DNA of 64,000 nt. Origin: Apiospora phragmitis (Eukaryota > Ascomycota > Sordariomycetes > Amphisphaeriales > Apiosporaceae). Shown here piece by piece: positions 13,145 through 59,903 of the stretch (within the stretch, counting starts at the first letter, position 1; every line of letters starts with the position of its first letter). The translations under genes and the position numbers were made by a program. The notes below the pieces were generated by a model. It saw only the letters and a list, made by a program, of their open reading frames with translations. It ran no database searches and was not told the origin of the DNA. The stretch covers positions 372,001-436,000 of the forward strand of contig JAQQWL010000018.1 in NCBI GenBank assembly GCA_038363925.1, in the 5' to 3' direction.

Positions 13145-13680
13145 ACTATGACGGCGGCACTGTCATTCTCACGAGGCAGAAGAGTCAGAGGCAGCTAGCT
13201 GCCTTCCAATGATTTCCACACAACCTATTTGCAGGCTTCCTATCTCCTTTGGCTTGGGGAAAGCGGGGACCCCCACCAAAGAAGCTACCAAAGCTACCCC
13301 GCCAAACCAAATAAGCTACCCCGCCAAAGAAGCCGCTGCGCTCCCACCCAAAGAGCATTGAAGCTAATCGTATGACAACCTTGATAGTTAAAGCATGATG
13401 AATACAGCTTGATGCTTTAATGACGATATCTGGTGGGCAATGGCGGTAACACGATATTAATAATATCTAAAGCCCTAGAGCGAGACCAGAGCATTGACAC
13501 TAAAGAGTATGAGCGTTCGGTGAGATAAATAGAGTTGAAGCTGTTGGAGGAAGATAATTAAATTCACTTGGTTCATGTCCCGCTCAGCGGGACGGCTCAG
13601 CCTACGTAGCCTCGACAATTCTTCTCTTCGACCGTTTCTCAGTTGCAGCCGACGCGAAACGAAACACCACCCAAGACTCG
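13145..13680. other. Spacer with short imperfect repeats upstream of the NLR
   Basis: Contains a low-complexity stretch at about 13260-13350 in which 'ccgccaaa(g/c)' and 'aagctacc' motifs recur. The remainder is presumably the promoter and leader of the NACHT-WD40 gene starting at 13681. Confidence 0.35.
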
Positions 13681-16600
13681 ATGGCTGAAGTGTTCGGCAC
13701 CGCGGCCAGCGCTCTTGCCGTTATCGAGTTAGCAGTAAAGATCACCAAGCTTTGTGCGCAGTACGTGGAAGATGTTTCGAACGCGAGAGACGATATCGGA
13801 CGAATCAATACGGAAGTGACGAATCTGAAGGCTGTCACCGAGAGCGTCCGCAAACTCCTAGACGGCCCCCAAGGGACAAAGCTCCGCACATCCCAGAATC
13901 TATACACCGCATTACAAGATGGACAAGGAGAACTTCAAAGGCTAGAAGAGGACCTTACCTCCAGGAAGAGCAGGAAAGCGATGAGACGATGCGGCCTTCG
14001 CGCTCTGAAATGGCCTTTCAGGAGTGAGGATGTTCAGAAGAAAGTTGATATTCTCCAACGATGCTCGCAAACAATCTCCTTGGCCTTACAGGTTGATCAA
14101 ACGTAAGCCGCTTCTTCCAGTCCAGATATGCTCTCGGCTGCTCACGATCTACCCTTACAGAACCGTTCTCCTTAATATCGACCAAAAACTTGTGCTCGCC
14201 AGACTCCCTGTCGCACAAGGAGCCGCATTTGACTCACATGCCGAGGAACACAATCCCCAATGCCTTCACGGCACTCGAGTCGAGCTCCTAGCCGAGATTG
14301 ACGGATGGATTCAGGACCTGAAGGCAAAAACAATGTTCTGGCTCAATGGCATGGCAGGAACGGGCAAGTCGACTATCTCGCGTACCCTAGCGCATACTGC
14401 CTCCACGGGTGGGTTTCTTGGTGCTAGCTTCTTTTTCAAACGTGGTGAAGGGGATCGCGGTGGCGTGTCCAAGTTCTTCTCCACCCTGGCAGCGCAGCTG
14501 TGCTCACGGGAACCGGCTGTTATCCCGCACATCCAAGATGCCATCGATTCCGACCCTGCGATCTTCGGAAAAGCGATGCGAGAACAAATCGAGAAGCTCA
14601 TATTTCAACCGCTATCGAAAATTTCTAGAGCTGCTTACAAGAACCGTGCTCTTCTGATTATCGTCGATGCCTTGGATGAGTGCGAGCACGAGGAGGATGT
14701 CAGACGCTTGATACACTTATTCTCGATCTCGAAAAGCATACAATCGCCCCGGCTCAAAATCTTTCTTACCAGCAGACCCGAGCTTCCTATCCGTCTTGGC
14801 TTCGCTGCGATTAAAGAGGAATACCAACACCTTATCCTTCACAAGGTCGCTACATCCGTAATTGAGCACGATATCCAGGTCTTCTTCAACAGTGAGCTCA
14901 CGCGAGTGAAGAATGACTACAACGCTTCCGTGGCAGAAGACCGACACATACCCGCCGTATGGCCAAGCGAAGACGACATGCGGATCTTGGTCAAGATGGC
15001 GGTACCGCTGTTCATCTTTGCCGCTACCGTTTGTCGGTTTGTCGCTGACCGAAGACTCGGGGACCCTGCAGACCAACTACAAGAGATCATAAGCTACCGG
15101 GCGACGGCTCAAGTCTCTCAGCTCGAGGCGACATATATGCCTGTATTGAACAAGCTCCTCAGCGATACGTTAGGCGAACAGAGAAAGCACACCGTTGAGC
15201 GGTTTCGATCGATTGTTGGGCCAATTGTTATTCTCGCTGAACCCCTTGCCCTAGCACCCTTGGTGCGGCTACTAGATATGCCCTTAAAGACGGTTGCCGT
15301 CACTTTGGACCTACTTCATTCTGTACTCAGTATTCCCTCTTCTTCCGACCGGCCAATCCGACTACTGCATCTGTCATTTCGCGACTTCCTTCTCGACCCG
15401 GAGAAGCGAGAGAGCAACCTGTTCTGGATTAATGAGAAGGAGGTCCATCGTCGGCTAGCTACGGAATGTCTGCAAGTCATGAATAGCTCGCTGCGGACGG
15501 ATATCTGCCAAGTCCAAGCACCTGGGATAGCGCTCTCAGAGATCGATCCTGAGCGGATCAAGAAGCACCTGCGACCAGAGATGCAGTATGCCTGCCGCTA
15601 CTGGGTTTACCACCTAGAGCATTCAGGTACACAGCTCTCCGATGGTGATGAGGTGCATAACTTCTTGATCCGCCACTTTCTCCACTGGCTAGAAGCGCTC
15701 AGTCTGATAAATAGAGTTTCGGAAAGCCTAGAGATTCTAGCCACGATAAGAGGCCTCACTGTAAGTTACGAATCAATTCGTTTCGTTAGGTGGCTAACAT
15801 CCGTTTAAGTCAAGTCCTGCTAAACAACTCGACGCTTTCTTCGACGATGCGAACCGCTTTATTCTAGCCAACGTTTCTACTATTCAAGCTGCCCCTCTTC
15901 AAGTCTATTCATCTAGCCTCCTCTTCGCCCCGAAACAGAGCGTGATCCGTGCTATATTTAGAGATGACGTTCCACAATGGATAAAAACGTCGACCGGAGG
16001 TCGACGACAAGTGGGAATAATTGCCGCCAGACGCTCGAGGGCCACAACAATGCGGTCAACTCGGTGGCGTTCTCGCAAGACAGCAAGCTGGTGGCGTCGG
16101 CGTCGGACGACCATACGGTCAAGGTCTGGGACGCGGAGACGGGCCAAGAGCTGCAGACGCTCACGGGCCACAGCCTTAGGGTCAACTCGGTGGCGTTCTC
16201 GCACGACAGCAAGCTGGTGGCGTCGGCGTCGCACGACCAGACGGTCAAGGTCTGGGACGCCGCAACGGGCCAAGAGCTGCAGACGCTCATGGGCCACAGC
16301 CGTTGGGTCACTTCGGTGGCGTTCTCGCACGACAGCAAGCTGGTGGCGTCGGCGTCGCTCGACCAGACGGTCAAGGTCTGGGACGCCGCAACGGGCCAAG
16401 AGCTGCAGACGCTCAAGGGCCACGACTCTGGGGTCAACTCGGTGGCGTTCTCGCACGACAGCAAGCTGGTGGCGTCGGCATCGCACGACCAGAAGGTCAA
16501 GGTCTGGGACGCCGCGACGGGCCAAGAGCTGCAGACGCTCAAGGGCCACGACTCTGGGGTCAACTCGGTGGCGTTCTCGCACGACAGCAAGCTGGTGGCG

Positions 16601-17110
16601 TCGGCATCGCACGACCAGAAGGTCAAGGTCTGGGACGCCGCGACGGGCCAAGAGCTGCAGACGCTCAAGGGCCACGACTCTGGGGTCAACTCGGTGGCGT
16701 TCTCGCACGACAGCAAGCTGGTGGCGTCGGCGTCGGACGACCACACGGTCAAGGTCTGGGACGCGCAGACAGGCCAGGAGTTGCAGTCCACCTACATAGG
16801 CATTATTTTCCCTATATTATCATTTAGCCCGGATTCTTCATATCTTCTTACTGATGTTGGAGCCATTTCTGTTGGTGCCCAACCTAGTCAGTCATCACCT
16901 CCACAGCGCGAGGTTGCACGCCTTGGCTATGGTATCAGCGAGGATCACAGGTGGATTACTTGGCAAGGGAATTATTTTTTATGGCTACCACCTGATTTCC
17001 GGCCAACCTATGGTGGATCCGCTGTTTCCGGTTCTTTGGTAACTATCGGCTGTGCTTCGGGGAGGGTGTTTTTTATAGAATGCGACATGGAAGGGGTTGG
17101 AAAGCAGTGA
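13681..17110 (+). CDS. NACHT-WD40 NLR (HNWD-like), frame broken at the NACHT-WD junction
   Basis: Exon 1 (13681-14102) encodes a helical N-terminal domain (MAEVFGTAASALAVIELAVK...) of the type found on fungal STAND proteins. A 58-nt intron (GTAAGC...TACAG) leads to exon 2 (from 14161), the NACHT module: P-loop GMAGTGKST, Walker B LLIIVDALDEC and FLTSRPELPIR. A second intron (donor GTAAGT, branch GCTAAC, acceptor at 15808-15809) leads to a winged-helix-like linker ending VPQWIKT. The WD40 array (16031-16786) is in another frame: the linker frame must shift twice (near A5 at 15983-15987 and near 16013-16021) to join it. Family role: STAND receptors; Podospora HET-D/E/R are allorecognition NLRs of this class. 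A possible last intron (GTGAGT at 17109, TAATAG near 17166) would extend the product to 17359. Either an inactive allele or an assembly error. Confidence 0.75.
16031..16786 (+). repeat. Six tandem 126-bp WD40 repeats
   Basis: Each unit encodes 42 residues around GH-x-x-x-V-x-SVAFS-x-DSKLVASAS...VKVWDA-x-TGQELQ. Units start near 16031, 16157, 16283, 16409, 16535 and 16661. Units 4 and 5 appear identical at the protein level. Variation concentrates at the residues after GH and around the 'HDQT/DDHT/LDQT' positions, the exposed loop positions known to vary in HNWD receptors. A degenerate seventh repeat follows (LSFSPDSSYLLT). The other plus-strand frame through the array is also open. Confidence 0.85.
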
Positions 17111-24724: not shown

Positions 24725-26974
24725 TCAGGCTGGGGTGCGTTGAAAGAGGCTACATTGGAATCTGATTTCATACTCAATAGAGATGGCTTCATCATGTCGA
24801 CCTAGTGCTTTGAGTGTGAAAGCAAGGTTATTCATGCTGGTCAGCGTGGAAGGATGATCCGGCCCGAGTTTCTGCTTGCGAGTCTCCATCACTTCTATAA
24901 ACAGCTTCTCCGCTGCCTCCCATCGGCCTTGGTTCCAAAACGTCGACGCCAGGTTAGCCATGCTGGTCAGCGTGTCTGGATGATCCGGCCCGAGTTTCTG
25001 CTTGCTCGTCTCCATCACTTCCACCTCCAGCTTCTCCGCTGCCTCCCATCGGCCTTGGTTCCTGTACGTCGACGCCAGGTTGGCCATGCTGGTCAGCGTG
25101 GAAGGATGATCCGGCCCGAGTTTCTGCTTGCGAGTCTCTATTACTTCCATAAACAGCTTCTCCGCTGCCTCCCATCGGCCTTGGTTCCTGTACGTCGACG
25201 CCAGGTTGGCTATGCTGGTCAGCGTGGAAGGATAATCTGGCCCGAGTTTCTGCTTGCGAGTCTCCATCACTTCCACCTCCAGCTTCTCCGCCGCCTCCCA
25301 TTGACCTTTATCTCTCAAGACTCCACCGAGTATCGAAACACTATCCAACGTCAATTCATGATCTTTTCCAAATATCTCTTCCCTTGTAACCCGCGACTTC
25401 TTGGCTATCCTTTCAGCTATAGAATACCTCCCTTGCGCCTGTGCATACTAGCCTGCATTGTACAGGATTAAAGCCCAATCTTCTAACAATGTTAGGCTGT
25501 ATGGACGGTAGTTCAAAGCGCTTTCAGCGTGCGGAAACAGCTTTTGGCAGACTTCCCAATTTTTATAGGCACCAGTCGGCACTTCCTATGCCATCCGCCT
25601 GAGGAACTGTTCCTTAAACCTTTCTGTTTCCTCCTCCGTATCGAGCTATCTTCTTGTCGACAACTGCACGAGACCATGTATCTCAAGGACGTCACCATCT
25701 TTGTTCGTAGAAACTAAAGAGTAGTTTCGAAGTGTTGCTAAATCCTCTTTAAATATATCTCTAGAAGATATATTAGAGGAATCGCTTTGGTTAGAAGCAT
25801 CGCTGTTTTCGCTCGTATCTTGACTCGATCCGTCGTTAAGCGGTCGTAGCCACGACTCTAAGATGCCCTGACGATTAAAGAAGCTTATGAGAGAAAGTAG
25901 ATCAGCCGCTGACCGCCTGTCCGATCGAACAGCATCGAAACAGATCTGTCACGTAACAATGACAGAGTTCGATGCGTTCGGATCTCGTCGGAGGTCGTCT
26001 GAGTCGTGGTTTAAGAGACTAGTCTTCTTCCGTTCGCTTTTTCGAAATTCATCTAAATATCTTCGGATTGAAGTTCGCGGGGCTCGCTGCTGGATATACG
26101 CTCCTGCTTGGCTAATCGCTAGAGGCATATATTCCAGTGCTTCCACTAGCGCAGGACCAGAATCCATGTCTGGCTGATCGCCAGCCTTCGTGGCGAGCAG
26201 TACCAGTGCATCGTCTTTATCCATCGGGTGTACCTCGATGATGCTTTTGTGGTCTCCTGTCAGCTTGAAGGCGACCCTCTTGTTTCGTGTTGTGATCAGA
26301 ATTGACCCGTTTGAAGCCTGTGGCAAGTAGGTCCACAGAGCCCTCCGCGTGCGTTCGTTCGCTGCGTCCGAGTAAGCGGTGCTCTGTTCGTTCTCGAAGA
26401 GGACGTCAGGGTGGTCGGCGTTGTCCAGAACCAGAAGCCATCGTCCATTCCTGTCGTTGCGAAGCCACTGTTCCACGAGCTGAGGGATGTCTGCGTTCGG
26501 CTGATTTCGACCGGGGATCTTAACATCATCGGCTATCTTTCTAAAATCCTCCTCTATACGGGCGCGGGTCCCAGCATGGACCCAGAATACCCATATGTCT
26601 TCGTTCTTCTGCGACGACGCGGCCTCCCTGGTCTGATAGCAGCACTCGATTGCCAGCTGTGACTTGCCGACCCCGCCGAGCCCCACAAGGGCAGTGCGGG
26701 AGGCTGGGCTTGAGCATGCCTGTAGTAAGGGGTCGAAGAGTGTCTTGCGGTTGACGAAATCGGTATCGCGGCGGAAGGGGATGTTGGAAGAGGGTGTCGG
26801 CGGTATTTCTGGTCGTTCTGTTAAGGTTCTATTTAGCCTGTGTCGTGGTACTACAGAGGAAGCCGCTGAGGCTTAACTTACCTGGGGGAGGTGCACTTGC
26901 AGAGACCCGCTGTTCGTACCCACTTGAAACCCATGGTTTATCCCTTTAAAGGCGACTGATATCCGCTCTGCCAT
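24725..26974 (-). pseudogene. NB-ARC-TPR NLR with sigma-like N-terminal amyloid motif, inactivated (NLR-3)
   Basis: ATG at 26974; exon 1 (26974-26882) encodes 31 residues carrying KGINHGFQVGTNSG, like the sigma motif of fungal NLRs (G-x-N-x-G-x-Q-x-G-x-N-x-G). Donor GTAAGT follows. The next exon holds the NB-ARC: GLGGVGKSQLAIE (P-loop), WLLVLDNADHPD (Walker B), ILITTRNK and EYMPLAISQAGAYI. C-terminal kinesin-light-chain TPRs (W-E-A-A-E-K-L...RKQKLGPDHPSTLTSMANLA) run to TAG/TGA at 24725. The frame is closed by TGA at 25949 and TAGs at 25646, 25586 and 25448. Those where the family expects Trp (25949, 25646, 25448) fit TpG->TpA transitions. The exon 1/exon 2 phase could not be reconciled. Role in intact relatives: ligand sensing by TPRs, NB-ARC oligomerisation and amyloid templating of a cell-death effector. 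It lies head-to-head with the effector-like gene at 27237. Confidence 0.8.
24830..25310 (-). repeat. 126-nt TPR repeat array of NLR-3
   Basis: About four tandem units of 126 nt encoding 42-residue kinesin-light-chain-type TPRs. Units are nearly identical to each other and to units at 56530-57010 and 28595-28804. Differences fall mainly in the helix after 'AAEKL' (EVEVMET / FMEVIET / FIEVMET). Confidence 0.85.
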
Positions 26975-27236
26975 TTTGAAGATTCGATCGCGGTATAACT
27001 CGACGTAGTGGAATGTAGAAAATAAACTGCAGAAGAGAAAAAATGGGATTGGCTCAGCTGGCCTGCAGTAAACCACGTAGGAGGCCTCTCAGGCAGGCTG
27101 CGTCTGCACGTGACATAAGACGGCTTCTCTACACTTACGCCAATGAGACATAAGCCATTCCGATCCCACCCGCACACACCGTTCAGTATCGTACTGCGAA
27201 GAAAGTGCGGACTTCTCTTCCTTCATTCCGAACACC
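26975..27236. promoter_or_regulatory. Shared 262-bp intergenic region of a divergent NLR/effector pair
   Basis: The NLR start (26974, minus) and the effector-like start (27237, plus) face away from each other over 262 bp, so both promoters must be within or overlap this region. Assigned by position only; no specific binding site was identified. Confidence 0.4.
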
Positions 27237-28063
27237 ATGGCTGATCCCGTGAGTCTTGCGCTTGGTCTGGCCGGCATTCTTACCCCCGCGCTACATTGGA
27301 CACGGCTTCTAGTTGAAGACCTCTGGAAGATCTCTGACGCTCCATCCACCCTGAAAACCCTCCACGAGGATGTTCGCTCTGTCGAGGCAGCTCTCCAGTC
27401 ACTCGATTCAATCAGCCCGCCGCAATGGGAAGCGCTAGGAGCAGCTATCCTCGAACAATCGAAAAGCGCCATCGATGCTTGTACTAAGTCCTGTACCCAG
27501 TTTAGGGATGACCTACAACGATGGACTAGACACTCCAATGAGGGCAGCATGTCAACACGAGATCGGCTGACCCTGGGCTTCGTCAGACAGAACCAGGTCA
27601 AATCGATGTCCGAGCAACTATAGAAGTATCAAGTAGCTCTCAACCTGGTGATCGGCACGGCAACTCTGTAAGTATCATATCAACCTTTCTTGGCTATCTT
27701 TGTCTATACTCGGCATTGGAAAGCACGGTTCCCGCAATCCGACCATTACTGCCAGTTCTGCTGCGCCTGCTCAGCCCAGTCCTGTTCAGCCCAGTCCTGC
27801 TGGCAGCTACTGATATGGTTCCAGAACCCATATTGGGAAAATGGATTTCGGTCCTGCTTCTCTTCGGCGTGTCTTGACGAGGATAAGCCTCTCACCTCAC
27901 AAGTGCTGAAATACCGCTACACATGCTCACGACAGGGACCCCTCGAGTGTCTATTTCAAATGCTCAAGAGCCATACATTAGCTCAAATGCTATACTGGAT
28001 GCCGAAGACCAAGTGCGAATCGATGTTTCAGGGGACTTCTCCCGCAGACTTCAATTTGGATAG
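27237..28063 (+). pseudogene. HeLo-like/SesA-type helical effector gene, inactivated
   Basis: ATG at 27237 opens MADPVSLALGLAGILTPALHW, the typical start of helical N-terminal domains of fungal STAND proteins and their HeLo-like cell-death partners. The helical domain runs to an in-frame TAG at 27621-27623, where the flanking residues read sensibly on both sides; CAG to TAG is a CpA->TpA change. The frame then continues to a donor (GTAAGT near 27667). A downstream stretch in one frame (DAEDQVRIDVSGDFSRRL, ending TAG 28061-28063) looks like the remains of the last exon. No C-terminal amyloid motif can be read in the decayed middle. Divergent arrangement with an NB-ARC gene supports an effector role in the ancestor. 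Confidence 0.6.
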
Positions 28064-38640: not shown

Positions 38641-38898
38641 CTAATCACTGGCATTACCAGTATCCTCGCTCGAGCTGTCCTTGCCCTCGCGAGTCTCCAT
38701 CTTTCCGGTTGCCGGCACGAACAATGGGTCAAGCTCCTCAATCAGCCCTGCCGCCAGCCAACTTCGCAACACTTGGCTTATCGAAATCGTGCGCGCATCT
38801 AACCTGTTCCTGCAGGGCGTCACCATACGTCCTGCCCCAGAAAATAGGCGTTCACACTCCGCCGACATCGACTGTGCCGTGAGAATTTCCAATGCCAT
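38641..38898 (-). mobile_element. hAT transposase C-terminal dimerisation fragment
   Basis: The minus frame reads MALEILTAQSMSAECERLF, SGAGRMVTPCRNRLDARTIS and QVLRSWLAAGLIEELDPLF. This is the hATC dimerisation motif ('iPamSaecERlFS.ag...r.rL...ti...l.lrsWl'). Only the last ~85 codons remain; the catalytic part is missing. A relic of a hAT element. Confidence 0.8.
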
Positions 38899-38945
38899 TC
38901 GAGAGCCGCGGGTATCGGGTTCTCTTCTCGTGCCAGTATGCGATT

Positions 38946-39113
38946 ACAGTCACTAGCGAAACCTACGTCCTCTCTCTACTCTTTTATAGTTCCCGTTCTG
39001 GACCCACTCTGCAGGGGTATGTGCTGACACCATGTACCCCTCCAAGCTCACAAGTACCGAACCAATTTTGGCTTCGCTTACTCTTCCCTTGTGCATTCAT
39101 AACTCGCATATAG
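38946..39113. repeat. Dispersed TIR-like repeat, copy B
   Basis: Begins cagtcactagcgaaacctac and aligns along ~170 bp with copy C (56111-56280), ending ttcataact. It lies next to, but outside, the hAT fragment. A CAGT-type end with a palindromic CTAG core is reminiscent of hAT terminal repeats, so a non-autonomous derivative is possible. Confidence 0.6.
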
Positions 39114-39799
39114 TACAGTATATTTGCATTCCCTTATGCCGGACAAGATCTGGAGCCAGAAGCTGCTGACAGTTTATGCTCTCTTTCGCAATGCAACCGT
39201 CCCTGTCAGCGTCTGCAAATAGAGCTTTGGATACAAATCCGGTCAGCAGCGTCTTCGGCACGCATTCCACTCCTTATTCCTACAATACGAACGATTTCCC
39301 ATGTCGAGATCACTCGTACATATCTTTCATCCACTCGGTCTTGTGTGTTTTCCTTTTAGACCATAATCACCAACCACAAGATACAGAATCCAGATAACAC
39401 ACCTCTCCAAGATAGCCAAGAAGTAGTTGAGCCATGCTCACTCCAGCATGTTTGACGACTGCTGTCTGTTAGCATCGCCTTCGAATCCTTCATTGAAATC
39501 ATCATAAAATTCTCCTAGGCAACTGCGGATAGCGTCTATAATATGGGGCTCTTAGTTTTCCAAGCTAGCAGGCTGTCAGATTTAAAGCAGAGGTGCCTAG
39601 CAGCGCTATGGTCACTTGACTGTTCGGCCACAGTGGCTGCTGCCACAGGGCTCTCCCAAAAGATGGGTTCCCCGACAAAATGACTCCCCTAGTTCCTTTT
39701 CTTCTTTCCCTTCCTTCCGCAACACCTCTGCCGTCGAAGCAGGCAGCCGAGCAATTATGTTTATTACTACCTTCTTCCTTCCTGTGCAGCCATCCCACG
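39114..39799. other. Intergenic, nothing recognised
   Basis: Downstream (3') of the minus-strand effector pseudogene. Frames on both strands at 39565-40065 are shadows of the effector exon or lack motifs. Confidence 0.35.
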
Positions 39800-40701
39800 T
39801 TATCCAAACATGCGAGCGAAGGAAGCCGCATCCATTTGCCCTTGGAATGCCCTGCTGTTGTTTTGCGCCGACAGCTTTCCGAATGACTGGTCCACCCCGT
39901 TTTGAGCTTCGCCCACTATCCCTTGCATGGCAAGAGACTGATCTATCTGCATGTCTCCAAAGCTCTGGCCGGTCCGCGCTGATTGAGTGGCTTTCAGAGA
40001 AGTTTCGCACGCTTTTTGCAGGGTCGCGAACCGCTGGAGGCTGGCTTGTTCGTTACCACCTATAGTGTTTGGCACAGTGGTATCTCCTTCTGGAGTGGTG
40101 GACTTCTTTGATAGTTCTGTAGCCAAGGTGGATAGAGCCTGTTCTTGGGCTTGGAAGCGTGCGTTTAAATGTTGAACGTCGTTCGAGGTGCTGTGAGAGA
40201 CAATCCTGTAAACAGTAAACCTCATTAGTACGGCTCAGCTCTGATTAAAATGTGTAAAACATATAATGTGATCGTCTCTATAACCAAGGAGATGGTTCTC
40301 TGACAATTACTTAATTGGTTATTAAATTGTGCGATCTGCGATTCGTGTAAGTTCACAAGGAACCTATCACGGCTACTAAATCTCGAATCAGTCGAATGGC
40401 TCGTGTACTTCGTAATTGTCGTATTGAATCTGTCGCATAGCTCTTGGGTAGACGATAACGTCTGATCAAGGTTAATCGATCGCAGAACAGAACCAAACCG
40501 GGCTTGTATATCTTGGCTTGTTATTAATGTGCCTGTCAGGGTGTCCAATGAGTTTTGTGTCCCTGCGACAAGAGCCTTCGAGTTAGCGATAGTCTGCGGG
40601 GCCTCGACCAAGCCATCGATGACCTTGTAAACGGCTTTAGTACTCTGCGTCGCAAGGCCAGTAATAGCGATTATACTCGCCGTGACGCTTAATGGATCTA
40701 T
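39800..40701 (-). pseudogene. HeLo-like effector with two amyloid-like C-terminal repeats, inactivated
   Basis: The reading DPLSVTASIIAITGLA at 40698 downward is the typical beginning of HeLo-like domains of fungal cell-death effectors. The codon before it is ATA (40701-40699), where ATG is expected. Exon 1 is 40701-40265 and exon 2 is 40205-39800 (TAA); together 843 nt with exact phase. The 59-nt intron between them keeps a CTAAT branch and TACAG acceptor, but its donor reads ATATGT instead of GTATGT. Both lesions are TpG->TpA. The helical domain has ~230 residues. The last ~50 residues carry two related units, QSFGDMQIDQSLAMQG and QSFGKLSAQNNSRAFQG, 26 residues apart. The NLR next door, transcribed away from it, has the same motif. 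By analogy with HET-S and HELL/HELLF proteins the intact protein would be a membrane-active death executor. Confidence 0.75.
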
Positions 40702-41028
40702 GGCGTTTAACGGTTAAATATAATATAGTAGTAACCACGGACGAGGAGGTTGTCTTCGTACCCTGATCGTATGAAATGATATTCAGCCGCAAAATATACT
40801 GACACTCTGATTCGTTGGTATAAAGCACACGTGATTTCCTCCGCACAGGACCATTGTCAGCAGAAAGCTGTCGAGAATCTACAATAGCAATTGAAACCAT
40901 TCCATCTTCGAAAACGCTTCTCGATGGACTTGAAATACTCTGTACGATAATCGCGACCGAAGTCGAAATCTCCCCAGCCAAACCTAGTTACATACTGGTC
41001 CACTCATTAGACACGTACTAGGTGCACC
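40702..41028. promoter_or_regulatory. Shared intergenic region of the divergent effector/NLR pair
   Basis: 327 bp between the presumed starts of the effector (minus) and the NLR (plus). Both 5' leaders and promoters must lie here. Assigned by position only. Confidence 0.4.
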
Positions 41029-42612
41029 ATATCGGATTCCGTGCGGAAACGACCGGCCACGAACCAACAACAGTTCGGTAATGCAACAGCAACCGATAGC
41101 AGTCAGGTATTCCAGGGTAATGCTTCGGGCAATATTGCGATGAACTGTAAGTCGGTTAAGATATAGTTTCCATCGCTCAATTCTAAAATTCCTGGGCAGT
41201 AACCTATAATCATCACTACTCCGCTCCAGGTACGTTGCTATATAGCCAAACCTTGAGCCAAATAGCGCTAACGTTAGGTCCAACCCAACCCAGAACGACC
41301 CGGAACCCCACCGAAGCCGACAGCCCTCATTCCTTTCAATCGCGACAAAGACTACGTGCAACGGGACACAATCCTCGACCAGGTCCAACGCTTATGCAGC
41401 GAGCCAGCCTCGTGAACTGCACTTGTCGGCTTGGGCGGAGTCGGCAAGTCGCAACTCGCCATCGAATACGCCTACCGAATCCGAGACCGATCGCCCGAGA
41501 CCTGGGTTTTTTAGGTCCACGCGAGTAGCGCAGCCCGTTACGAGCAGAGTTTCCGAGACATTGCAGACTACCTCAAGCTACCCGAACAGAGGAATCCTAA
41601 AATAATATCTTCCAATTGCTGTATAACTGGCTACGCGGAGAGAAGAGTGGGAAATGGGTTCTAATACTCGATAACGTCGATAAAGCCAGTTTTCTATTAA
41701 ATAACCTAGCCGATTATGGCGACGGGCAACAGGACAGCTCAAACGGTCAGAGTCAGCCGCTCGTCTCATATCTTCCTAGTTGCCAACATAGATCTATCCT
41801 CATCACGACAAGAAGCAGAGATGTGGCGGCTAAGCTGGCCGAATTACGTGATATCATCGCGGTCGATCCTATAAATCAGGTGGAGGCGATCACCCTAGCG
41901 CAGAAAAAGTTAGGAAAGCTAAACAAGCAGGGAGATATCGAGGCTATTAAATCCCTCATCAAGACGCTCGAATATATGCCGTTAGCAATCGTTCAAGCGA
42001 CAGCCTATATCTCGCAGAGAGTTCCACGTTATTCCGTGCGACAATACCTCGAGAAGTTTACACAGAGCGACCGGAATAAAGCGAGTCTTCTTAATTACGA
42101 AAGAGGGCAGTTACGGCGGGATCGAGAAGCGAAAAACTCAATCATCATCACATAGCAAATCTCATTCGACCACATCCGTCAAACCAGACCATCGGCAGCC
42201 GACCTACTTTCGCTAATAAGCTTCTGCGATCGCCAAGGCATCCCTGAGAGTCTCCTACGACCTTTAGATAAGAAAGGTGCCATCAGTGATTCAGACCGAC
42301 AGCAACACAGCCCTACTTTGGATAGTTCGAGTAGCGATGAAGAATCTACCGATGACGACTCTAAGTCGAGTTCTAGTAAGGATAATCAATTCGAGATCGA
42401 TATTTCGGCTTTGCATGATTACTCGTTTATCTCTATAAACGAGGATAGAGAGACGTTCGCAATGCACAGTTTGGTGCAGCTGGCGACGAGACGATGGCTT
42501 GAAGCCGAGGGACAACAGGAACAGTGGAAGTCTCAGTTTATCGGTCGCCTTGAGCAGGTTACTCTCAAATATCGTCATATCACATTCATAGCAGTCTTCT
42601 CCCAATTCTTAT
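41029..42612 (+). pseudogene. NB-ARC NLR with matching N-terminal motif, inactivated (NLR-1)
   Basis: A presumed start at 41029-41031 reads ATA followed by SDSVRKRPATNQ. The exon carries QQFGNATATDSSQVFQG and then NASGNIAMN before a GTAAGT donor (~41137). After further splice sites (acceptor GCTAACGTTAG at ~41276) comes NB-ARC: GLGGVGKSQLAIEYAYR (P-loop), WVLILDNVDKASF, ILITTRSRDVAAKLAE and EYMPLAIVQATAYI. Damage: a one-base loss near 41303, TGA at 41413, TAG at 41512, a one-base loss near 41600, TAG at 42153. The C-terminal part ends after MHSLVQLATRRWLEAEGQ, so the TPR array present in paralogue NLR-2 is lost. The N-terminal motif has the spacing of the effector motif at 39800-40701, whose gene is head-to-head with this one. 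Confidence 0.8.
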
Positions 42613-42646
42613 AACTTATCTTCCGTTGTAGCTCTAAAGTTATAAA

Positions 42647-43775
42647 CTACAACACAGCAACACAAACATTGTATCCACCCCAAAGGCCCGCACAGCTAGT
42701 CCCGACAGCAGGGTTCCATTTGTAAAAATCATCCAGGGAAACCCCAGCCGCCGCCGCGATGTCGTAGCACGAGTCTCCCCCACCACCGCGTGGAACGCCT
42801 TGCAGTTCTTGGTCATGCCGGCCTGGATCGGCGTCGGCGTCACGACCCCGTTTCCGGGGCTGGCGGTAGTAGTCGGCTGCTGCGTGGTGGTCGGGGTTCC
42901 ACCGCCCCCAAGGACGCCGGTGCACACGTAGTAGCCACCCCAGAGCGCGGCGCACGTGTCGCCGACCGCCGGGTTCCACGCGTAGAAGTCGGCCAGGGCG
43001 ACCCCGGCGCCCGCGGCGATGTCGTAGCAGCTGTCGCCCCCGACCACGAGGTGGAAGGCGTCGCAGCTGCCGACCATGCCAGCCTGCATCGGCGTCGGGG
43101 TGGCGATGCCGTTGCCGGCGGCGCTGGTCGTGGTAGCGGCGCTGGTCGTCGTGGACGTGACCAAGGTGGTGGGCGGTGGCGCCGCCGAGCTGGTGCCGAC
43201 GCAGACCCAGTACCCGGACCACAGGGAGGCGCAAGTGCTGCCTATGGCGGGGTTCCACGCGTAGAACTGGGCGAGTGGGACGCCCTGGGCGGAGGCGATG
43301 TTGCCGCAAGTGTCGCCGTCGCCCACCTGGTAGAAGTTGTTGCAGCCGGCCACCATACCGGCCTGCGTGGGTGACGGGGTGGCGACCCCGCTGGGGCCCG
43401 TGGTGGCTGTCGCGGCCGGCGGGCTTGTGGGCGAAGGGGTCGTCTTGGCATAGTTGACCTCGACGCAGTAGTAGAGGTTCTGGATGAGGGTGCAGCGACC
43501 TCCGAGCTTGGTGCTGGGATTCTGTTTTCGAGGTCAGCATCTGCTGTCGTGAGGATATGGCCTGGCTCGGGTTACTCACCCAAGATTGGAACTGTTGCAT
43601 CGTAATACCCACGGCCTTGGTAAGGAACCTCGCACGTCAGGCTGTACGAGTCTTGCACCCAGGCACTGCAGCTCTGCGTGGCGCCTGGAGCCGCGGTTCC
43701 CTCAGGGGTAACCAAGTAGGTGTCTGCCAGGCTCAGAGCCAGCGCCGAGGAAAGAAGGGTACTGAACTTCACCAT
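42647..43775 (-). CDS. Secreted protein with four LysM domains, two frameshifts
   Basis: ATG at 43775 begins a signal peptide ([17 protein letters not shown]). Exon 1 is 43775-43580; the intron (GTGAGT...GCTGACC...ACAG) ends at 43522; exon 2 is 43521-42647. Four LysM units are visible: one split across the intron ([20 protein letters not shown]), then [36 protein letters not shown] and a last with [18 protein letters not shown]. Each ends like 'fy.WNPa.g..C..Lw.GY.VCV'. Linkers are Thr/Pro/Ser-rich. The LysM family binds chitin oligomers; secreted multi-LysM proteins of fungi can mask hyphal chitin. Two single-base frameshifts interrupt it, at about 43628 (one base too many) and at the C5 run 42777-42781 (one too few). 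Such indels may be assembly errors. Confidence 0.8.
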
Positions 43776-44622
43776 GTTGTCGACGGGGCGGGAAGCTATG
43801 GGGTTGGTGCTATGGGACTGCGAGTGAGACGTGATCAGCAGATTGTCGATGATACTTATTACCAGAGCTCGTCGGCTCCAGCCGGAGTTTGACCCCGAAC
43901 GATGTCCTGCATGAAAGTTGAACTGGCTGCCTAGTCCCGAGATGGAGCCGGAACTATAATCAAGATGATATTGGTCTGGCCACCTGACGATCTCGAAAGT
44001 GGACTCTCGGAGGAACTTAGAAGTTGGTTCTCAGATGAACTCGAAAGTGATTGAAATTGATAATGCGCGAGAAGAGAGACAGCCTCTCGTTAGATGGTCA
44101 TACCAGTACGACCTCGAACCAACTCGTAGATGTTGTAAGCTCTAATGCAAGGAATCAATATTACGGCACCATTTGATCTAATTAGTCCGTGGTTGTCCGG
44201 TTATTCCTAATATGCATGAGGCCGCGGTTTGCGCCATACTTTAGTAAACATCCATGTGCGTGGTGTCCACTATGCGCGGCACAGATTGCGGGCCCGTGGC
44301 TCGTCACAGACCGGGTGGAGATCTAGTACTACCCTGTCTAGCTTGTCGACCCTTGTACAGGCGGGCCGGCGCAATTACCTCTATACTTATGCACAAAACG
44401 AGGCACAACGCTGGAGCCTTGGGCCTCTGGGCCTCTGTGCTTACTCGCGGGCAGCCGGGCCCCGGTGAGGGTGTCATCATGCTGGCACTTCCTTTCCAAA
44501 GGGCATGAGGCGTTATAGATGCTGGGGCCTGCAGGTTGAAAATCCGACAAGTCCTTTGCTGTCTGTCTGATTTGCCCCAAGCATCACATCCTCAGCCGGT
44601 TGCTTGTCTAGTCGTCGCTAAT
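43776..44622. other. Intergenic, divergent promoters
   Basis: Separates the LysM gene (minus) from the HExxH gene (plus). A run of similar phrases (ctcgaaagtg, ctcggaggaacttag, ctcgaaagtgattg) occurs near 43990-44060. No gene seen. Confidence 0.35.
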
Positions 44623-56333: not shown

Positions 56334-58563
56334 TCATATATCGTCGGATAAGCTCAATTCCGAGAGAGGTGGCAATACTCGCTCGGCACGCCAAGTATCC
56401 AATGTTTCGATGGACGAAGAAGTGTCTGGATGCTCCGGTCTCAGTGTTTTGCGGCGAAGTTGGACGCAAGATTCCATCAAGTCGATAGCATCAGTCGTAC
56501 GTTCTTGGGAGTACCAGGTGAAAGCCAGGTTGGCCATGCTGGTCAGCGTGGAAGGATGATCCGGCCCGAGTTCCTGCTTGCGAGTCTCCATCACTTCCAC
56601 TCCCAACTTCTCCGCTGCCTCCCATCGGCCTTGATTCCAGTACGTCAACGCCAGGTTGTTCATACTGGTCAGCGTGTCTGGATGATCCGCCCCGAGTTTT
56701 TGCTTGCTCGTCTCCATCACTTCCACTCCCAGCTTCTCCGCCGCCTCCCATCGGCCTTGATTCAAGTACGTTGACGCCAGGTTGCCCATGCTGGTCAGCG
56801 TGTCTGGATGATCCGGCCCGAGTTTCTGCTTGCGAGTCTCCATCACTTCCACCTCCAGCTTCTGCGCTGCCTCCCATCGACCTTGGTTCCTGTACGTCGA
56901 CGCTAGGTTGGCCATGCTGGTCAGCGTGGAAGGATGATCCGGCCCGAGTTTCTGCTTGCGAGTCTCCATCACTTCCACTCCCAGCTTCTCCGCTAGCCCC
57001 CACTGACCCTTGAAGTTGTGCACATGACCGACCATCTCTATAGCCTCTAGGCTTTTTTCGTGTGTCCGCCCGAATATCTTTATTCTGCACTTCATTGCCT
57101 TCTCTGCTCTCTTCTGTGCTCGATGCCCTTGTCCCATCATCCATAGATACTAGGCCGCTTTATAGAGGATCGCCGCCCATTCCTTCAATGATTCATCATC
57201 CTTTGGTTGCTGCTCTGCTGCCGCGACAGTGTGTGGCAGAAGTGCCTGGCAAAGTGCCCAGTTCTCATATACTCCAGTTGGGAGCTGGGCGTTAAGGCGG
57301 CAGATAAACTCCGATTTCCACTTTTCCTGCTGTCCCTCAGCTTCAAGCCATCGTTTCGTAGCCAGCTGAACTAAGCTGTGCATTTTAAACGTCTTTCCGT
57401 CCTCCACTGTAGAAATAAACGAGTAATCGCGCAAACTAGAGACATCCTTTTCGAACTGATCATCCATGCTAGAGTCCGATTCGACGTCTTTATCGCTTGA
57501 TTCTTGGTCGCTGCCTGAACCGTCCAAAGCAGAGCTCCGTCGGTATTAGTTTGGTCTACTAGTAGCGCCTTCCTTCTCATCTGAAGTCCGCAGGAGACTC
57601 TCAGGGATACCTTGGCGATCGCAGAAACTCATAAGTGAAAGGAGGTCGGCTGCAGATGGTCTAATTTGACGGATGTGGTCGAACGAGATTTGCCATATGA
57701 TAATAATTGAGTTTTTGGCCTCTCCATCCCGCCGTAATTGCCCGGCTTCGTAATCAAGAAGAGTCGCTCTCTTCCGGTCGCTCTGTGTGAATTTCTCGAG
57801 GTATTGCCGCACTGAACAACGCGGAGCTCTCTGCGAAATATAGGCTGTCGCTTGGACGATTGCCAACGGCATGTATTCCAGCGTCTTAACGAGGGATTGA
57901 ATAGTCTCGATATCTCCCTGCTTGTGTAGCTTTCCTAGCTTTTTCTGCGCGAGGATTATCGCCTCCACCTGATGCATAGGATCAACCGCAATGATATTAC
58001 GTTCCTCGGCCAGTGTCAATGCTGCATGCTTGCTTCGGGTAGTGACGAGGATGGATCCATGTTGGCAGTTAGGGAGGTAGGAGACGAGTGGCTGACTCCG
58101 GCCGTCTGAGCCATCTCGTTCCCCGTCATGATCGGCCGGATTGTGGAGGAGAAAGTCGGCTGCATCAACGTTATCGAGTATAAGGATCCATCTCCCACTC
58201 TTCTCGCCACGTAGCCAGTTATAGAGCAACTGGAAGATGTTGTTTTGGGGATTCCTCCGTTCGGGTAGCTTGAGGTAGTCTGCAATGTCTCGGAAGCTCT
58301 GCTCGTAACGGGCTGCGCTGCTGGCGTGGATCCAAAAAACCCACGTGTCGGGCGATCGGTCTCGGACTCGGTAGGCGTACTCAATGGCGATCTGCGACTT
58401 GCCGACGCCGCCCAAACCGACTAGTGCAGTTCGCGAAGCTGGCTCGCTGCATAAACGGTAGACCTGGTCGAGGATTGTGTCCCGTTGGACGAAGTCTCGG
58501 TCACGATTGAAAGGTATAATGGCTGTCGGCTTTGGTGGGGTTTCTGGCCGTCCAGTGTTGGAC
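56334..58563 (-). pseudogene. NB-ARC-TPR NLR, interrupted (NLR-2)
   Basis: The NB-ARC exon starts at an acceptor (GCTAACGCTAG) at 58564-58565 with SNTGRPETPPKPTAIIPF. P-loop GLGGVGKSQIAIEYAYR, Walker B WILILDNVDAADF, ILVTTRSKHAAL and EYMPLAIVQATAYI are clear. The hinge reads MHSLVQLATKRWLEAEGQ. The C-terminus has about five 42-residue TPRs (WEAAEKLGVEVMETRKQKLG type) and ends at 56334. TAA at 57546-57548 and TAG at 57150-57152 interrupt an otherwise continuous frame; both fit CpA/TpG->TpA changes. The 5' exon, where the amyloid motif of paralogue NLR-1 lies, could not be found upstream of 58565. It shares long stretches with NLR-1. A SesB-like hydrolase gene lies just upstream in the same orientation. 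Confidence 0.8.
56530..57010 (-). repeat. 126-nt TPR repeat array of NLR-2
   Basis: About four to five tandem 126-nt units, nearly identical to each other and to those of NLR-3 (24830-25310). Unit variation is at 'LGVEVMET' / 'LEVEVMET' and 'RKQKLG' / 'SKQKLG'. Confidence 0.85.
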
Positions 58564-58759
58564 CTAGCGTTAGCGCCGCCTGGCTGAGGGGCTATTATAG
58601 CGGTAACCTACCTAAATTGACGGACCTAGTCTCGCTCTTACGACGTCGTGTATTGCCTTTTTACTAGATATGTATTAGCGACTTGTTCTTAGATAGGCTA
58701 TTCGGAGATATATTATAAAAGCTGTTGAATTATGGCGAGATCTAGTTTAAAATAGACCT

Positions 58760-59903
58760 CTATGATTCGTTTCTTTGCAGTCGAGCAAACCGCTCCTGCA
58801 GATCGCCCACAGCAGAAGTCTCCTCTTGAACAGTTAATGACGGAGCATGTAACTCACGTTTCTTAAGCGCTTTCTCGTACACGTCTTTGATATTTCTCCG
58901 CACAAGCTTCATATTATCTTGATCCGTCTGACCAGGTCCGAACTTGCATACACCTCCGTGGTCCGCGTTTAGCTTGACGACGTTCTCTCGGTCGCCCGGC
59001 ATTCCGAGCCGTGCGCTTTCTCGTGGTACAATCTTTATCCAGCAATGGTTAGCAAACCAGCTCTTGTCTTACATTTAAGATAAGATAACGTAACTTACGT
59101 TATCCAGGCCGCCCCAGAACGACACAATGTCGTACTCGAGTAGCTGATGGCGCCAATGCTCCTGCATGATGTCCGAGAACATGCTGCCGCTCTTCAATAC
59201 CTCGAGCACGTCGTCACCCTTCTGGAATCCTGTCGTCGTCGCAATCTTCGATGCTATCTTTCCCAGGCTAACAAGTTTCGAGTCTCCACCTTGATGCGGC
59301 GTCGCAAAAAAGACTAGTCCGGAGGTCATGGCTTTGATGGGTGTATATTTCGGGTTATTATGTGCGTTGATTAACGCCTGCTTCACCAGAAGGCCACCTA
59401 TGCTGTGTGATAGGAATGTTATCTGTCGCGATTCGTCCTCATCCCTCTCGATCCGGATCGCTTCGAGTAGTTCATTCGCTTTTCCTACGAACGTGTCTCG
59501 GTCTCGGCCATAGACCGCCGTCGCATTATATTCGTACAGGAAGACACGCGGGTCGGTCACGTACTGCGGAAGGTCGTCACGGAGCCATAGACGGCCTTCG
59601 GGTCCCGGAAGACTTCGCCATGTGTCCCAGGCATGGTCGGTGTCGTTCTTGCTTCGCGGGTTAAGGCCGTGTACGGCGATAATGCTAGGTAAGTTAATTA
59701 ATATTCGATAGAAATAATTGATAGGAACCTTCTTACTCAACTCGGGCCCCCTCGTCCTCACTAGGCCCGCCTAACTCTGGGAACAACTGGCGTAGTGGCT
59801 AGCTTTCCGTTAGTCGATGTCCAAAAGAGGCAATAGACACGTACCATGTCTAACACTCGCTGCTCATACCAGCTAAGTTTTGAAGAGCTTGGTGATTGAT
59901 AAG
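58760..59903 (-). CDS. SesB-like alpha/beta hydrolase
   Basis: Exons: up to 59845 (start unresolved; WYEQRVLDM), 59798-59737, 59684-59099 and 59032-58760. Introns GTACGT...CTAG, GTAAGA...CCTAG and GTAAGT...AAAG give exact phases. The product reads DIIAVHGLNPRSKND, HAWDTWRSL, VFLYEYNATAVYGRD, then nucleophile elbow TFLSHSIGGLLVKQALINAH, GLVFFATPHQGGDS, ending with LNADHGGVCKFG. This is the SesB-like lipase/esterase module found alone or fused to NB-ARC in fungi, and often encoded near amyloid-signalling NLRs; substrates are unknown. Ser of S-H-S-I-G is the expected nucleophile and His of ADH the catalytic histidine. No start ATG is seen in the first exon, whose frame opens after a TAA near 59905, so a 5' exon is missing or the start has been lost. 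NLR-2 follows 200 bp downstream. Confidence 0.75.

Follow-up and report, generated by a model that had tools for sequence, protein, structure and literature searches.

The head-to-head gene pair described here, which lies in a 64,000-nucleotide stretch of Apiospora phragmitis DNA (the window, to which all positions refer unless another sequence is named), is, with a probability of about 94%, a decayed copy of a cell-death signalosome of the HELLF/FNT1 type. The initial annotation had proposed an amyloid-signalling pair of the HET-S/NWD2 kind, in which one motif (r0) on an NLR matches two motifs (R1 and R2) on the neighbouring effector. That identification was right and can now be specified as the HELLF/FNT1 (HRAM) type, a class that is already known, with the copy in the window being decayed. 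HELLF of Podospora anserina is a HeLo-like protein that bears two repeats at its C-terminus, and FNT1, whose gene is adjacent to hellf, is an NB-ARC/TPR NLR with an N-terminal repeat R0; the HELLF repeats form a beta-solenoid prion, [Phi], without cross-seeding with [Het-s], and conversion of HELLF leads to its relocation to the membrane region and to cell death (PMC7885112, PMC7889193).

If both genes of such a pair were intact, the activated NB-ARC/TPR receptor would bring its N-terminal r0 motifs together in an amyloid nucleus with a beta-solenoid fold; R1 and R2, in the C-terminal part of the HeLo-like protein, would be templated by this nucleus, and the templated protein would relocate to the membrane and kill the cell. 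By analogy with Podospora, the intact relatives in this lineage probably work like HELLF and FNT1, and this motif set may likewise form an amyloid or prion and seed its partner; the copy in the window itself probably no longer works. What can be read at the level of sequence is the effector domain, the HELLF-like R1 and R2, the matched r0, the head-to-head layout and the occurrence of r0 in four NLRs. The features of the pair are collected in Table 1.

Table 1. Coordinates and basis of the features of the putative HELLF/FNT1-type pair in the window.
Feature	Position	Strand	Basis or remark
Effector exon 1, HeLo-like (PF17111 PigL_N) domain	40264..40701	-	Pfam match, E 4e-17
Effector exon 2: stop codon, linker, C-terminal prion-forming region	39800..40205	-	Reading frame and PDB match
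Repeat R1 (QSFGDMQIDQSLAMQG)	39920..39967	-	PDB 6EKA match and sequence
Repeat R2 (QSFGKLSAQNNSRAFQG)	39839..39889	-	R2 profile, 52.5 bits; PDB 6EKA match
Intergenic region common to both divergent genes	40702..41028	.	Coordinates of the r0 loci
NLR exon 1 (N-terminus) bearing r0	41029..41146	+	Without the start codon of relatives
r0 motif (QQFGNATATDSSQVFQG)	41068..41118	+	R2 profile, PDB 6EKA match, sequence
NLR NB-ARC and DUF7779 part	41300..42614	+	Interrupted by three premature stops and one frame change; not followed by TPR repeats

The minus-strand gene had been described as effector-like, and this is borne out by PF17111 in its first exon, which scores 62.7 bits in the Pfam scan, where the cutoff is 27.2 (PigL_N, PF17111, is called HeLo-like in the literature on amyloid signalling). 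By-eye comparison with the intact paralogue at locus L012 and with the public protein P0009 showed that this exon is without the start codon and the 5′ splice site present in the relatives. Exon 2, an open frame of 144 codons, is identical in the second copy of the locus on contig C3. The starts of R1 and R2 are 26 residues apart, in agreement with the distance of about 26 residues given earlier for the two pseudo-repeats, and R1 is shorter than R2 by one residue. From the first codon position of the effector to the start of the NLR, the distance in the window is 328 bp.

The AlphaFold2 model of P0004, the effector homologue of A. arundinis, was computed from alignment A1 (12 sequences, P0004 first); it has helices at residues 3-220 and a pLDDT below 50 at residues 223-276, where R1 and R2 sit. 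The model fits a predicted folded effector domain followed by an unstructured tail. The comparison of the effector model with PDB folds returned only generic or unrelated helical chains and decides nothing.

All three motif copies lie where the initial annotation had placed them, and its count of 8 identities between R2 and r0 in an ungapped alignment of 17 positions is correct. The significance of this likeness was measured with a profile of R2 from 25 public effector homologues (P0001-P0025), which holds no NLR sequence; P0026 was left out because its C-terminus is missing. Among 1945 six-frame pieces of the window (at least 20 codons each), the effector's own R2 ranked first with 52.5 bits and r0 second with 10.9 bits (E 0.035), and a best score above 10.9 bits was reached in 2 of 100 residue-shuffled windows. 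Taken alone, this whole-window test gives r0 a moderate significance; together with the finding that just 4 of the 121 public NLRs examined carry r0, it is what speaks for r0 being a random stretch rich in Q, F, G and S that happens to be near an NLR. The case against chance is strengthened, however, by the location of r0 on the first exon of the adjoining NB-ARC gene and by its occurrence in four public NLRs: annotated NLRs of four named fungi have retained it at the N-terminus, by which the chance reading is largely refuted. HELLF is moreover the only PDB match of r0, and all four r0 loci found in the genome adjoin effector copies. An origin by chance is accordingly regarded as highly improbable.

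As for public relatives, the intact effector paralogue of L012, used as query, retrieved 26 public proteins, with the top match from Apiospora at 57% identity. NLRs were searched for with a related NB-ARC core (from locus L043), and among the best 120 of 2767 matches r0 was found in P0030 (Xylariaceae sp. FL1651), P0034 (Apiospora hydei) and P0042 (A. kogelbergensis), by a pattern that had been fitted to the r0 family itself; the fourth r0 NLR, P0147 (A. arundinis), came from a search with the N-terminus. When the R2 profile was run on the first 100 residues of the 121 public NLRs (P0027-P0147), these four ranked first, with iE values of 0.024, 0.093, 0.093 and 0.81, the weakest being that of P0030 (0.81). 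The profile search suggested in the initial annotation thus places r0 near the N-terminus of public NLRs. In the annotated P0034, r0, a linker and the NB-ARC domain follow one another uninterrupted, and the r0 exon is therefore part of that predicted gene; as far as gene prediction goes, this answers the doubt whether the exon belongs to the NLR gene. The further expectation that motif-bearing NLRs and effectors are encoded next to each other held at the r0 loci of this genome; the r0 NLRs and effectors found in Apiospora have locus tags that are not consecutive, and adjacency in other species is taken from the literature.

The divergent plus-strand gene had been taken for an NB-ARC receptor with the motif on its first exon, and this agrees with a P-loop downstream of the r0 exon and with an NB-ARC match in the piece 41601-42155, which is weak (E 7.6e-5, 22.5 bits) and just misses the curated Pfam cutoff of 23.5. 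This NB-ARC piece shares 80% identity with a further NLR of the window (56334-59770), which has an above-cutoff NB-ARC match, and the piece 42156-42614 matches DUF7779 with E 1.1e-9 in the Pfam scan. After the NB-ARC/DUF7779 part no TPR was found in the window copy, unlike P0030, P0034 and P0042, which bear NB-ARC-region and TPR sequences. Interrupted by three stops and a frame change and without a TPR region, the NLR of the window is thus a relic of the FNT1 type and not an intact member. Directly downstream of the truncated NLR, at 42640-43800, there is a LysM-domain gene (PF01476, E 1.2e-10), inside the duplicated block described below.

The motif class was identified by direct comparison with the PDB. 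Exon 2 of the window matches one chain up to E 1, namely 6EKA (E 7.9e-21, residues 79-143 of the open frame), the solved prion-forming domain of HELLF of P. anserina; the entry is titled P. anserina genomic DNA. Against this chain, the intact paralogue in L012 has an E value of 1.8e-19, and for the peptide of the r0 exon 6EKA is the sole match up to E 10 (E 0.029), the second repeat aligning better.

In the HRAM numbering of PMC4518210, R2 reads Q3 S4 F5 G6 K7 L8 S9 A10 Q11 N12 N13 S14 R15 A16 F17 Q18 G19. Among the public homologues, Q3, F5, Q18 and G19 of R2 are each present in 25 of 25, as is R/K15, and the two C-terminal repeats are joined in all 25 by a six-residue loop, which is within the range of 6-18 set for HRAMs; D7 of R1 stands opposite K/R7 of R2 in 13 of the 25. 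According to PMC4518210, HRAM4 is defined by hydrophobic residues at 5, 8, 10 and 16 plus Q18, with R/K15 preferred; Q18 is its mark, and Q3 is the mark of HRAM2. The positions in question are F5, L8, A10, A16 and Q18 in R2 and F5, A8, A10, V16 and Q18 in r0, in keeping with that definition, and position 10 of R2 is T in 14 of 25 homologues, which the same paper permits. The window motifs are therefore like HRAM4 (Daskalov et al. 2015, PMC4518210) in G19, which is present in R1, R2 and r0, in Q18, in the hydrophobic or small residues at 5, 8, 10 and 16, in the loop of 6 and in that r0 is closer to R2 than to R1. Against the assignment speak position 3, which is Q as in HRAM2, and position 15, which is R/K in R2 of the window but L in R1 and Q in r0.

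The Podospora HeLo-like protein was placed in HRAM4 by PMC4518210, whose HeLo-like query Pa_3_9900 is hellf in PMC7885112, and under HRAM4 Table 1 of PMC4518210 counts two proteins of Apiospora montagnei and one of P. anserina. In the papers of 2021 (PMC7885112, PMC7889193), HELLF is labelled HRAM5, that is to say, the group number differs between papers. Beyond that Table 1, no paper naming such a pair in Apiospora was found in a limited literature search.

It could also be supposed that the motifs belong to another amyloid class, such as PP, PUASM or canonical HET-s/HRAM1; the PP motif does occur, by a strict pattern, in 47 of the best 120 listed NLR N-termini, and these have related cores. 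In r0, R1 and R2, however, neither the PP core NxGxQxGxN nor the PUASM pattern FxGxGxQxxGxGxF (PMC9815663) is present: the relaxed PP pattern has 2 matches in the window, both outside the three motifs, and the PUASM pattern was looked for by eye. The Pfam scan of exon 2 gave no match to PF11558 (canonical HET-s) up to E 1 and one unrelated weak hit only. Set beside the direct HELLF match, these results reduce the probability of another class to an almost negligible level. In the comparison with published motifs that the initial annotation had proposed, here covering the HRAM, PP and PUASM classes, the motifs fall in the HELLF class; the motif class is an already described one, the HELLF/FNT1 (HRAM) type.

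The state of the copies was surveyed in the genome (52.7 Mb, 19 contigs) by searches that score best candidates only. The frame of effector exon 2 had 11 matches and the r0 exon 4; the four r0 loci found are the window, L009, L010 and L014, all of them head to head with an effector copy and with a spacing between first codon positions of 327-329 bp. Since these loci are paralogous and two of them lie in one recent duplication, they are not four independent cases. None of the four looks intact: L009 is a duplicate of the window NLR and carries more stops; at L010 the NLR match extends over about 150 codons before breaking off, and the effector is interrupted by stops; at L014 the NLR has stops and the effector a large internal deletion. 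The sole effector seen that looks intact is that of L012 (on contig C5), and within the 10 kb of this locus no r0 match was found near it; as the searches rank best candidates, an intact receptor may exist elsewhere. The window copy is a decayed relic and cannot be taken as functional, because the effector is without the start codon and donor site of its relatives, and in the NLR the frame is broken by stops and a frame change and the TPR region is absent.

Effector fragments that bear R1/R2 and are without the HeLo-like part occur in L011, L013, L016 and L017, at about 4.8-5.2 kb in each; those of L011, L013 and L017 have a common 5′ breakpoint, corresponding to window position 40027. The fragment loci have 3.8-8.1 kb in common with L013; to judge by eye, the shared part includes an ankyrin-repeat gene resembling NLRs. 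The conserved R2 glycine is lost in the L013 fragment. Such fragments, three of them with one 5′ breakpoint, together with the open exon 2 and its identity in the C3 copy, would suit an altered but active module, in which the effector uses another start or the R1/R2 exon acts as a free prion or decoy without the HeLo-like domain; a parallel is HET-s, whose HeLo domain is considered inactive. Nevertheless, no start codon is available for the effector, the adjoining receptor is truncated and has stops, and the fragment loci are segmental duplicates, one of which lacks the glycine, and such a module is considered very unlikely. An equally slim probability is given to the more specific idea that the R1/R2 exon of the window, of C3 and of the HeLo-less fragments is made as a free prion piece, tuning or seeding the intact effector of L012.

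Read as a decayed HELLF/FNT1-type pair, the locus can be compared with the known systems. Like FNT1/HELLF, it consists of a HeLo-like effector with two C-terminal repeats and a neighbouring NB-ARC NLR with one N-terminal repeat, and its repeat region matches HELLF directly (PDB 6EKA, E 7.9e-21); unlike FNT1/HELLF, both of its genes are broken, the NLR has no TPR region and R1 falls one residue short of its HELLF counterpart. With NWD2/HET-S of P. anserina (HRAM1), it shares one repeat on the NLR and two on the effector; it differs in the motif subclass (no PF11558 match), in having a HeLo-like instead of a HeLo domain and in having NB-ARC instead of NACHT. The NWD2/HET-S and HELLF systems are reported not to cross-seed (PMC7885112, PMC7889193). 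PNT1/HELLP (PP motif) is similar in its NB-ARC/TPR NLR and HeLo-like effector and different in motif from the r0 pair; on the NLR side it is resembled by the other pair of the window at 24.7-27.6 kb. A matched-motif amyloid pair can therefore be recognised from raw sequence, broken genes included, and the HELLF/FNT1 type gains one more genome, while the pair itself opens no long-standing question. Closely related NB-ARC cores are joined to a HELLF-type r0, to a lipase-like domain or, often in public relatives, to a PP motif, which illustrates module swapping.

The surroundings in the window are richer and more unusual than the HELLF/FNT1-type pair, which is ordinary, and at least 4 NLR genes or relics lie within 47 kb of the window. 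The second head-to-head pair (24725-27623) consists of a minus-strand gene with NB-ARC (PF00931, E 6.7e-12) and TPR and a divergent PF17111 effector (E 3e-14). The first exon of its NLR bears the PP core NxGxQxGxN at 26912-26938, scoring 24 bits (iE 2.8e-6) with a profile built from 47 public NLR N-termini; by the same profile, no PP motif follows the effector. The NLR at 56334-59770 has a lipase-like N-terminus (DUF676, E 2.1e-5), NB-ARC and TPR, with paralogues in L043 and L044. It shares 80% identity with the r0 NLR in the NB-ARC core, so that related cores bear different N-terminal modules. Another NLR, at 13558-17107, combines a PF17111-like N-terminus (E 2.8e-6) with NACHT (E 2.8e-8) and tandem WD40 repeats.

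A segmental duplication relates 16154-60129 of the window to G000:C3:49434-93437, with 91.4% identity over an alignment of 44,037 columns and a leftward continuation at 85%; the C3 copy is less than 100 kb from the contig start. The 3674 differences of the 44-kb duplication consist of 3647 transitions and 27 transversions, and of the transitions 3629 show the C-to-T-type state on the C3 side and 18 on the window side, 2251 being in CpA/TpG context. Per 2-kb bin, identity is 79.8-90.5% at 16-38 kb, 95.3% at 38-40 kb and 99-100% at 40-60 kb. This pattern is RIP-like, that is, the duplication appears to have been changed in the fashion of RIP in one copy only and with an abrupt end.

Just downstream of the effector, at 38945-39762, there is a dispersed repeat in two halves with at least 64 genome matches, and beside it, at 38641-38943, a remnant of a hAT dimerisation domain (PF05699, E 5.3e-9). 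Elsewhere in the genome, at L045 (2905-4862), an NB-ARC-type gene and a HeLo-like reading frame (MADPLSVAASVVGITVP...) were seen by eye to diverge from each other, and a frame resembling a DDE transposase lies close by.
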